Origin: Amphiura filiformis
Taxonomy: Eukaryota > Echinodermata > Ophiuroidea > Amphilepidida > Amphiuridae
Length of the DNA: 64,000 bases
Direction of reading: 5' to 3'
NCBI RefSeq assembly: GCF_039555335.1
Contig: NC_092635.1
Span: forward strand, 65,685,558 to 65,749,557
Below, piece after piece: positions 1,041 through 29,508 of this stretch. The translations under genes and the position numbers were made by a program. Positions within the stretch are counted from its first letter, which is position 1; the number at the start of each line of letters is the position of its first letter. The notes beneath the pieces were generated by a model that saw only the letters and a list, made by a program, of their open reading frames with translations, had not been told where the DNA came from and did no database searches.

Positions 1041-1162
1041 TTAATTTGCGCTCGGAGTGTCTGCTTTGTAGGCATCGAACGCCTCCCACCATTCTTCCAT
1101 TGCCTGGTATTTCCAGTTGTAAAATTCCTTTCTCCATTCACGTTCGACCTTCGGTAACTCAT
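1041..1162 (-). CDS. Esterase A exon 10: AChE-T-like (WAT-type) tail and stop
   Basis: Residues 547-586, TAA at 1041-1043. Within the tail, Trp10, Phe14 and Trp17 coincide with the aromatic positions of the acetylcholinesterase T peptide; Trp25, Phe29 and Tyr32 follow with a one-residue offset. In vertebrates this tail forms an amphiphilic helix that tetramerises around proline-rich anchors (ColQ, PRiMA) and is likewise encoded by its own 3' exon. The near-terminal Cys of AChE-T is missing here, so disulfide-linked dimers through the tail are not expected. The equation with WAT is from remembered family knowledge and spacing, not from an alignment run. Confidence 0.85.
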
Positions 1163-29100: not shown

Positions 29101-29508
29101 TGCACAGTCACTATATGACCGCTAAATATCACAAGATATTTAACGACTCACTTTAGCTTTACTTACCCCATGGGGTACATAAATATTCAAGTACAAGCAA
29201 TCTTCGCTAACTTCCAATTGATCTTTGACGACGGTAAGTGATTCTTGGTAGCAAGAAGGTCTCAAATAAGTTGCATTGTAAGTTCCATCCCAGGTCGTCT
29301 TTTTCACTGGGTGTTCGAATCTTACTGGTGGTTCAGCAAACGGTACTCCTTCATACACATCTATCTCTCTGTCGATATTGATATACTCATGTTCTGAGAA
29401 CATAACAGTCTTACCCATCAACAGGCCTTGTTCTACCTCAACAATTGGTTGAGCATTTGAGCTTGTCACAATTAGCAATAAACCGAAATAAAATGCTTTT
29501 CGGTTCAT
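14001..29508 (-). CDS. Cholinesterase-like type-B carboxylesterase, copy B (10 exons, 586 aa)
   Basis: Tandem paralogue of copy A with the same fold and predicted secretion. Exons in transcript order: 29167-29508, 24042-24201, 23801-23878, 23075-23193, 22300-22464, 19932-20135, 18801-19001, 16916-17115, 16056-16225, 14001-14122; lengths 342, 160, 78, 119, 165, 204, 201, 200, 170 and 122, each identical to A. The start is the second ATG of the open frame (29508), giving the same 114-residue first exon as A. Triad Ser208, Glu328, His447 is intact, as are the four disulfide cysteines; the omega loop again lacks Trp. The oxyanion motif is HGGSF, not YGGGF, so Ser replaces the Gly equivalent to Torpedo Gly119. 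The tail is WAT-like and ends SET instead of SAN. The exon 9 donor is GTTAGT, weaker than A's GTAAGT. No stops or frameshifts, so both copies look functional. It may be under different substrate constraints from A, but this is inference. Confidence 0.93.
14346..15536. mobile_element. 1.2-kb long-inverted-repeat element in esterase B intron 9
   Basis: Ends TTAGGGACCGTTCATAAATA at the left and the complement of TAAGGGACCGTTCATAAATA at the right. Many G-tract plus AAAAAGTTTTG repeats lie just inside both ends. The centre holds GC-palindromes such as GCGCGCTACGCGCGC. No transposase is visible. Confidence 0.8.
16916..17115 (-). CDS. Esterase B exon 8: catalytic histidine
   Basis: Residues 424-490; LLCGHAED carries His447. 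Same boundaries and phase as in A. Confidence 0.92.
17116..18342. other. Esterase B intron 7, unassigned part
   Basis: Non-coding. About 17320-17570 is a G-rich stretch with GGGGGCACTCAAATATAATG and AAGGCGTGAAAATGGGTGC that looks repeat-derived. I could not define its ends. Nothing else recognised. Confidence 0.4.
18343..18658 (+). pseudogene. LINE 3' end relic (reverse-transcriptase polyprotein C-terminus)
   Basis: Three successive frames give the usual C-terminal block of a non-LTR retrotransposon polyprotein: IKRVDRIP then [21 protein letters not shown]; then [21 protein letters not shown] and [12 protein letters not shown]. At least two frameshifts make it dead. The stop TGA at 18656 is also the first unit of the TGA microsatellite that follows, so the microsatellite is most simply the 3' tail of the LINE. 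Lies in esterase B intron 7, antisense to the gene. Confidence 0.85.
18656..18723. repeat. (TGA)n microsatellite, LINE tail
   Basis: About 22 TGA units, slightly imperfect near the right end (CATGATCATGATGA). It abuts the LINE C-terminus, as in LINEs whose 3' ends are short microsatellites. Confidence 0.9.
19002..19931. other. Esterase B intron 6
   Basis: Partly alignable to intron 6 of A (for example GCAGAATAGCAGTAAATA in both). About 19600-19690 has a GTGCGTAGCGCACTATAAAT followed by a T-rich run that resembles a SINE tail, but no A or B box could be secured. No coding signal. Confidence 0.4.
20655..21020. mobile_element. GCACGGTTGTTTGAT fold-back element, copy 1
   Basis: GAGCACGGTTGTTTGAT at the left and ATCAATCAACCGTTCGAG at the right form degenerate terminal inverted repeats. 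A related copy with better ends is at 31709-32200. Non-coding; in esterase B intron 5. Confidence 0.7.
21461..21802. mobile_element. GGCGTAGAT fold-back element
   Basis: Starts GGCGTAGATCCCGGGGGGAT and ends AAATCTACGCC. Inside are two direct copies of a GCGCGCTTCGCGCGCATTT palindrome about 75 bases apart. In esterase B intron 5. Confidence 0.7.
21833..22147. mobile_element. GGGGCTGTGCAATAATTATGA fold-back element, complete copy
   Basis: TAAGGGGCTGTGCAATAATT at the left and its complement at the right; the inner sequence has repeated GGGGCAAAGAATTTTTGGC. Same family as 6001-6188. Confidence 0.8.
22917..23073. mobile_element. Hairpin element touching the esterase B exon 4 donor
   Basis: Arms of about 45 bases (ATTGAAGACCGAATTAAAAA at the left, complement of ATTGAAGACTGAATTAAAAA at the right), TA-flanked. 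On the gene strand the element begins five bases into the intron. The donor now reads GTATAATTGAAG, where A reads GTATAGGCTAAC. Its far border reads TATATAGGTC, so the ancestral intron start GTATAGG can be recognised on both sides. Confidence 0.85.
23075..23193 (-). CDS. Esterase B exon 4: catalytic serine
   Basis: Residues 194-233 with [10 protein letters not shown] (Ser208). Its donor is followed within five bases by a hairpin element. Confidence 0.93.
24042..24201 (-). CDS. Esterase B exon 2: oxyanion loop with Gly-to-Ser
   Basis: Residues 115-168. [13 protein letters not shown]: the third Gly of the GGG motif is Ser128. The codon is TCT in B against GGC in A, so at least two base changes separate the copies here. 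Confidence 0.93.
24708..25000. mobile_element. Near-perfect hairpin element in esterase B intron 1
   Basis: Arms of about 120-130 bases pair almost throughout (for example CTGGTCAACCA, GACGGACGAACCGACGTTGC, TTCAGTCTTCAGCTGGGTTG). The intron sequence on either side (to about 24335 and from about 25045) is alignable to intron 1 of A, while the region between is absent from A. It therefore inserted after the duplication. Confidence 0.85.
25781..26130. repeat. Minisatellite of about 75-base units, each a small hairpin
   Basis: Five imperfect units of TTACTTTGTTTCGTGATGAA then AATCGTGATGTTTTATTTCA then TCACGCTCTAAAACAAACG. Each unit contains GTGATGAAA and TTTCATCAC as an inverted pair. In esterase B intron 1. 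Confidence 0.8.
26205..26277. repeat. (GAT)n microsatellite
   Basis: About 23 GAT units with one early GAC interruption. No LINE C-terminus could be read beside it, unlike the tract at 18656. Confidence 0.95.
26757..27425. mobile_element. TTAA-flanked long fold-back element, copy 2
   Basis: Same element and orientation as 7761-8664, without the nested palindrome. Borders TTAAGGG and complement. The intact central site at about 27230 serves as the empty site for the nested insertion in copy 1. Confidence 0.85.
28114..28264. repeat. (AATG)n/(AAAT)n microsatellite
   Basis: AATG units pass into a long AAAT run with single AATG interruptions. In esterase B intron 1. Confidence 0.97.
28391..28733. 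mobile_element. Probable fold-back repeat with G-tract ends
   Basis: A long G tract after TTAGGGCCAAATCCC at the left and CCCCCCTCCCCCGGGGGCC at the right form an imperfect terminal pair. The interior repeats ACCCATC.GTATACCAA, AAAAGCACCC and TGCGCCCAATTGGGCGCA. Exact ends uncertain. Confidence 0.5.
29167..29508 (-). CDS. Esterase B exon 1: signal peptide and shortened omega loop
   Basis: Residues 1-114 from the second in-frame ATG; an upstream ATG at 29526 would add six residues (MILLIK) without a counterpart in A. Hydrophobic leader, Cys86 and Cys104 as in A. Confidence 0.92.

Follow-up and report, generated by a model that had tools for sequence, protein, structure and literature searches.

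Acetylcholinesterase (AChE) is characterised by a choline-binding tryptophan at position 84 (Trp84), a catalytic triad and three disulfides (PMC4418574). The T peptide of AChE-T is encoded by a C-terminal exon subject to alternative splicing and takes part in the described WAT/PRAD assembly (PMC5943944). AChE-T is reported from all vertebrate classes, and glycosylphosphatidylinositol (GPI)-type ends were invented several times in a view cited by the same source (PMC3045457). AChE- and BChE-like COesterases have been named in a sea anemone (PMC3976352). Passages on the kinship of neuroligin with AChE (PMC2570956) and on thyroglobulin (PMC13078365) have no bearing on the tail. Among the literature matches listed, seen as titles and abstract beginnings, there is no report of a T tail outside the cholinesterases, which may still be published. 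A pair of esterase genes in the brittle star Amphiura filiformis appears to carry such a tail. The window analysed is the whole 64,000-nt stretch of contig NC_092635.1 (assembly GCF_039555335.1) from position 65,685,558 to 65,749,557, and all coordinates below count from its first letter.

Two neighbouring intact genes of ten exons each lie on the minus strand of the window and share one exon plan, gene A at 1041-11270 and gene B at 14001-29508. The reading favoured here, with a probability of roughly 0.6, is that they are tandem copies encoding a type-B carboxylesterase, putatively secreted, whose predicted active site is not that of a cholinesterase and whose terminal tail is a homologue of the AChE T exon. 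Both proteins match Pfam COesterase (PF00135) over the whole domain and above the cutoff (E 1.2e-130 and 5.8e-132). In the PDB, copy A matches vertebrate AChE best, with three tail-bearing chains in the lead (E 7e-92 to 7e-90), and bile-salt lipase ranks lower (5e-81).

By alignment the catalytic machinery is intact: Ser208 in a GESAG motif, Glu328 and His447 correspond to Ser200, Glu327 and His440 of Torpedo AChE, whose numbering is used below for AChE positions. The pair also retains the equivalents of Glu199, Gly117, Gly118 and Trp233 and two of the three AChE disulfides (67-94 and 254-265). The choline site is another matter. Position 84 aligns with Ile in A and Val in B, the two cysteines of the omega loop lie 18 residues apart rather than the 27 found in all five aligned cholinesterases, and the third disulfide (402-521) is gone, with Ala in place of Cys402 and Met in place of Cys521. 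Equivalents of Asp72, Tyr121, Trp279, Phe288, Phe331 and Tyr334 are absent. The gorge aromatics, which we take to be the 14 at positions 70, 84, 114, 121, 130, 233, 279, 288, 290, 330, 331, 334, 432 and 442, are identical to those of Torpedo AChE at four positions in A (114, 130, 233, 290) and five in B (330 as well); position 432 holds Phe or Tyr, against Trp in Torpedo AChE. All nine catalytic-domain tryptophans fall in columns where Torpedo AChE likewise has Trp, so none replaces the anionic-site residue as far as the sequence tells. An earlier note on this DNA had described a Trp-free loop nine residues too short and a missing third disulfide, and had named an aligned Trp84 as what would refute it and another Trp filling the site as informative; the alignment agrees with the description and yields neither. 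Judged by these aligned features, the pair is outside the cholinesterase definition, lacking Trp84, a 27-residue loop and the third disulfide, and the view that its anionic site is not that of a choline esterase is likewise supported.

The same note called the anionic Trp "gone", which is right as to its absence and also presumes its former presence. Many relatives are Trp-free, and the residue may never have existed in this lineage. The distance between the omega-loop cysteines is 16 in both bile-salt lipases, 29 in human carboxylesterase 1 (CES1) and 36 in neuroligin-4, and ranges from 6 to 31 in nine bacterial esterases, not all of which have both cysteines. No Trp occurs in this stretch in bile-salt lipase, CES1, a blowfly esterase or eight of the nine bacterial enzymes, whereas neuroligin-4 has a Trp aligned at 84 inside its 36-residue loop, so the change may have gone in either direction.

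The tail is encoded by exon 10 (122 nt with the stop; residues 547-586), which begins at a phase 1 junction that splits an Asp codon; the 40-residue human T peptide 1vzj begins at the matching Asp. The same boundary is the T-exon boundary in vertebrate genes, where the preceding exon is similarly long (167-170 nt). As the earlier note had observed, and as the rebuilt exon 10 of both copies bears out, Trp10, Phe14 and Trp17 are the residues of AChE-T, and three further aromatics stand one out of step. These are Trp25, Phe29 and Tyr32 against Trp24, Phe28 and Tyr31 of AChE-T, a shift explained by a single extra residue behind Trp17-Lys18. Among 177,635 distinct PDB sequences, tail A finds AChE-T in all four top places (E 0.0019, 0.0027, 0.0027 and 0.027), followed by unrelated complex I chains (E 0.34). 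Conversely, the human T peptide (33 residues) ranks the two tail exons first and second among 2,877 pieces of the window in six frames (E 0.0003 and 0.0007; next 1.6), and a two-sequence T profile returns them from the same pieces at E 0.0016 and 0.019, the latter below the HMMER inclusion threshold (next 0.46).

Shuffles that keep the hydrophobic/polar pattern reach the score against the human T peptide in 0 of 20,000 trials for A and 1 for B, and against Torpedo T in 0 and 2. The strictest shuffle, which holds five residue classes in place, reaches it in 3 (A) and 8 (B) of 20,000 against human T and in 17 and 53 against Torpedo T. The resemblance thus exceeds that of random amphiphilic helices, the comparison the earlier note had proposed. 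Since the PDB, shuffle and six-frame tests agree, homology of the tail to the AChE T peptide is well supported at the sequence level, short though the match is. The overall hydrophobic moment (Eisenberg scale) was rejected as a discriminator: 342 and 351 of 3,000 shuffles are as high for the two tails, and 193 of 3,000 for AChE-T itself.

Of the limits given by the earlier note, 1041 coincides exactly with the stop of copy A and 29508 with the ATG of copy B. With the exons rebuilt one by one, all internal boundaries are AG/GT and all frames open in both genes, and the intron phases are the same in A and B (0,1,1,0,0,0,0,2,1). The features are as follows:

10929..11270, minus strand: gene A exon 1, with a signal-peptide-like start and the omega loop (open frame from ATG to gtaagt donor)
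10959..11015, minus strand: gene A omega loop Cys86-Cys104, 18 residues apart, without Trp (alignment; coordinates computed from exon 1)
9712..9871, minus strand: gene A exon 2, oxyanion-hole GGG (splice sites and alignment)
9114..9191, minus strand: gene A exon 3 (splice sites)
7206..7324, minus strand: gene A exon 4, catalytic Ser208 in GESAG (splice sites and alignment)
6347..6511, minus strand: gene A exon 5, second disulfide Cys262-Cys273 (splice sites and alignment)
4605..4808, minus strand: gene A exon 6, catalytic Glu328 (splice sites and alignment)
2862..3062, minus strand: gene A exon 7 (splice sites)
2098..2297, minus strand: gene A exon 8, catalytic His447 (splice sites and alignment)
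1701..1870, minus strand: gene A exon 9, 170 nt, phase 1 end before the tail (sequence and translation)
1041..1162, minus strand: gene A exon 10, AChE-T-like tail (residues 547-586) and stop (PDB, Pfam, shuffle and six-frame tests)
29167..29508, minus strand: gene B exon 1 (open frame from ATG to gtaagt donor)
29197..29253, minus strand: gene B omega loop Cys86-Cys104, without Trp (alignment; coordinates computed from exon 1)
24042..24201, minus strand: gene B exon 2, oxyanion-hole GGS (splice sites and alignment)
23801..23878, minus strand: gene B exon 3 (splice sites)
23075..23193, minus strand: gene B exon 4, catalytic Ser208 (splice sites and alignment)
22300..22464, minus strand: gene B exon 5 (splice sites)
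19932..20135, minus strand: gene B exon 6, catalytic Glu328 (splice sites and alignment)
18801..19001, minus strand: gene B exon 7 (splice sites)
16916..17115, minus strand: gene B exon 8, catalytic His447 (splice sites and alignment)
16056..16225, minus strand: gene B exon 9, 170 nt, phase 1 end before the tail (splice sites)
14001..14122, minus strand: gene B exon 10, AChE-T-like tail and stop (sequence, splice site, shuffle and six-frame tests)

Each protein is 586 residues long, and the two are 87.35% identical over 585 aligned residues. By the NG86 method the nonsynonymous rate (dN) is 0.063 and the synonymous rate (dS) 0.260 overall, and 0.053 and 0.252 over the 39 codons of the tail; dN being well below dS in the tail too, both copies look constrained, tail included. 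At the exon 5/6 junction (introns 4809-6346 and 20136-22299) both proteins are shorter than AChE by several residues around the acyl loop. A missed small exon there was rejected, as a scan of both introns 5 for equal-length segments, with strict and then relaxed settings (at least 15 nt in the relaxed scan), found no conserved, splice-flanked, in-frame pair. Reading on past the donor of exon 9 would leave either copy with a C-terminus that lacks the tail. An alternative membrane-anchor (H-type) last exon has no candidate in intron 9 of gene A or the 1,040 bases downstream, and the search around gene B gave six hydrophobic open reading frames (ORFs), unconfirmed; with none found for A and none confirmed for B, the tail is the sole visible assembly device. 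The window holds one weak match to a proline-rich attachment-like motif, at 21489 on the minus strand.

Trees were built from catalytic-domain columns, omega loop excluded, with 21 rows, 18 rows and 11 animal rows, the last without bacteria; the outgroup came from 25 bacterial loci found in a search of genome contigs. Sampling is thin, the invertebrates being Drosophila AChE and one blowfly esterase. The pair joins bile-salt lipase with support of 85/84, 84/83 and 90/88 in the three trees, a grouping that was never starred and that in the 11-row tree carries a warning of long branches meeting. The pair falls outside a clade made up of the five cholinesterases (98/97, 99/98 and 99/97). Forcing the pair together with the four vertebrate, tail-bearing cholinesterases costs 12.4, 14.4 and 15.4 log units (approximately unbiased, AU, test p 0.028, 0.017 and 0.013; these p values, like those below, are uncorrected for several tests on overlapping row sets). 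The pair is therefore probably not nested beside vertebrate AChE, and it may belong either on the side of bile-salt lipase or immediately outside the cholinesterases as a whole.

Nematode ACE-1 has a T-like tail, so the tail would be at least bilaterian in cholinesterases; fly AChE is lipid-anchored and lacks a T tail. Cholinesterase genes have reportedly been amplified in molluscs, echinoderms and hemichordates. Matches of the 25 bacterial loci to the query end by residue 543, before the tail, and their six-frame translations give a T-peptide profile no match better than E 0.29. No relatives turned up among viral contigs, and NCBIfam gave just two matches, far below cut-off.

Several observations weigh against the favoured reading. 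Pfam AChE_tetra (PF08674), the tetramerisation model that the earlier note had put forward as a check, does match tail A alone at E 0.0017, yet at 18.5 bits it stays under the gathering score of 25; on the whole proteins the match is E 0.1 (A) and 0.023 (B). The tail has no counterpart of Tyr20 and has Tyr15, Tyr19 and Trp26 as extra aromatics, so that no single stripe of seven heptad-spaced aromatics runs along it. For AChE-T the aromatic moment is 0.85, with 3.51 residues per turn, and is equalled by 19 of 5,000 shuffles for human and 28 of 5,000 for Torpedo; the pair reaches 0.47 at 3.69 residues per turn, which 2,315 (A) and 2,258 (B) of 5,000 shuffles match. The six homologous aromatics alone give 0.87 at 97.5 degrees, a subset picked after inspection of the data. 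Because the insertion and the extra aromatics interrupt the stripe, binding of a proline-rich anchor is not assured, and the tail helix, for which the structure model is of low confidence, may pack in another supercoil or on another partner. Acyl-pocket Phe290 is aligned in both copies, and B has Phe at 330 and Ser at oxyanion position 119 (Gly in A); some cholinesterase features thus persist, and the two copies may differ in activity. The gene models, including the use of exon 10, are predicted from genomic sequence. Finally, forcing the pair together with all five cholinesterases costs just 2.7, 2.6 and 3.6 log units and is not rejected (p 0.181, 0.181 and 0.151). The tree check proposed in the earlier note accordingly cuts both ways, since the cholinesterase clade excludes the pair while a position as sister to all cholinesterases stands at p 0.15-0.18 and leaves "not a cholinesterase" unproven by descent.

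That unrejected position is also an argument for a rather unlikely alternative, a gene of the cholinesterase lineage that lost its choline site, with nine loop residues, Trp84 and the third disulfide gone and the T exon retained. The homology of the tail, the vertebrate AChE at the head of the PDB matches and the Trp aligned at 84 in neuroligin-4 all suit such a loss; the unconstrained trees speak against it by joining the pair to bile-salt lipase (84-90%), as do the low p values for a place beside the tail-bearing vertebrate enzymes. Tail and catalytic domain do seem to have different kin, and the tail is its own exon behind a clean phase-1 junction, as would be expected had a non-choline esterase taken over the T exon, together with the intron before it, from a cholinesterase gene of its own lineage. 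Such a capture is nonetheless unlikely, given an affinity that runs along the gene without a break and an exon 9 that is not significantly cholinesterase-like. A chimera with a cholinesterase-like 3' end was rejected on the same figures: exon 9 has a raw identity of 28-35% to vertebrate cholinesterases against 22% to bile-salt lipase, and 897 of 5,000 random column sets are as high.

Chance resemblance of an unrelated aromatic amphiphilic C-terminal helix to the WAT peptide is very improbable. The absolute scores are low (18.5 bits in Pfam, 21.3 bits in PDB), the insertion and extra aromatics depart from the T pattern, and 3 to 53 of 20,000 of the strictest shuffles do as well; position, exon status and starting residue are nevertheless all as in the T peptide, and the two tails rank first and second of 2,877. 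Under the favoured reading of a tailed non-cholinesterase, one tentative account of its origin places the tail exon already in an ancestral non-choline esterase, with Trp84, the longer loop and the third disulfide added later in one branch. The suggestion in the earlier note that the tail came before choline specificity is compatible with the trees and is one of several readings they allow.

On the favoured reading the enzyme would be secreted, as its N-terminus suggests, with a charge relay that conservation of the motifs predicts to be intact. The Ser-Glu-His triad most likely cleaves neutral or lipid-like esters, and the lack of Trp84 and of most gorge aromatics points to a substrate range that is not choline-selective. 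The aromatic-rich tail helix would most likely drive oligomerisation, perhaps around a proline-rich partner and in a register shifted by the one insertion. The proposal that the enzyme assembles or is anchored like a cholinesterase draws on the homology to the T peptide, and is weakened by the interrupted stripe and the low-confidence helix model.

Provided that tail homology and the lack of choline selectivity both hold, assembly and anchoring would be separable in evolution from acetylcholine hydrolysis, and enzymes of living animals could be used to test in what order AChE acquired its parts. Were the tail ancestral, the pair would be a surviving relative that has kept it, either on the side of bile-salt lipase or on the stem, and the role of the tail before synaptic AChE could be tested directly. 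Such a tail falls under the cut-off of the Pfam tail model, and more may lie unannotated.

The introns of the two genes hold repeats of their own. A dispersed element at 7760-8224 (gene A intron 3) is 94% identical to 26756-27226 (gene B intron 1), with an inverted match of 81% as well; the 94% exceeds most other alignable intron sequence. An intron repeat has no match among plasmids. Gene B intron 1 also contains an inverted repeat at 24706-24993 (123-nt arms, 95% complementary, 42 nt apart), near which the minus-strand ORFs at 24791-25703 have no Pfam match, and five diverged copies of a 67-nt unit at 25778-26132, spaced 68-75 nt. Beyond the genes, a plus-strand ORF at 50024-50449 matches Sterol-sensing (E 2e-19) and Patched (E 2e-10); the plus-strand ORFs 36285-36608, 57551-58123 and 58487-58828, Patched-like by eye, match no Patched model singly or joined. 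On the minus strand, 49491-50117 encodes a reverse transcriptase (RVT_1, E 4.5e-33), probably of a long interspersed nuclear element (LINE) remnant spanning 48874-50117, whose second ORF (48874-49566) has no Pfam match; the remnant adjoins the Patched-like exon on the opposite strand.

Among known systems, neuroligin-4 (2wqz) shares the fold, two disulfides and 34-35% catalytic-domain identity with the pair; it differs in having no catalytic Ser and a long loop with Trp. Human CES1 (8eor; 32-34% identity) shares the triad, two disulfides and a Trp-free loop, and is set apart by its loop distance of 29 and a C-terminus quite unlike that of the pair. Bile-salt-activated lipase (CEL/BAL; 1aql, 1f6w), sister to the pair in the trees, likewise has a short Trp-free omega loop (16 against 18), Ala after the catalytic His and no third disulfide; its triad acid is Asp rather than Glu, and identity is 36%. 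The stretch of this lipase compared ends at residue 532 and that of Drosophila AChE (32% identity) also at or near the end of the catalytic domain, which is what the comparison covers; BAL ends in proline-rich repeats. Vertebrate AChE-T (Torpedo 6euc; human 2x8b and 1vzj) differs from the pair in Trp84, the longer loop, the third disulfide, most gorge aromatics and a tail free of the insertion and the broken stripe, vertebrate cholinesterases being 35-37% identical to it. With the same enzyme the pair shares the COesterase fold, the triad, the first two disulfides and a C-terminal peptide with W10, F14 and W17, then W, F and Y.

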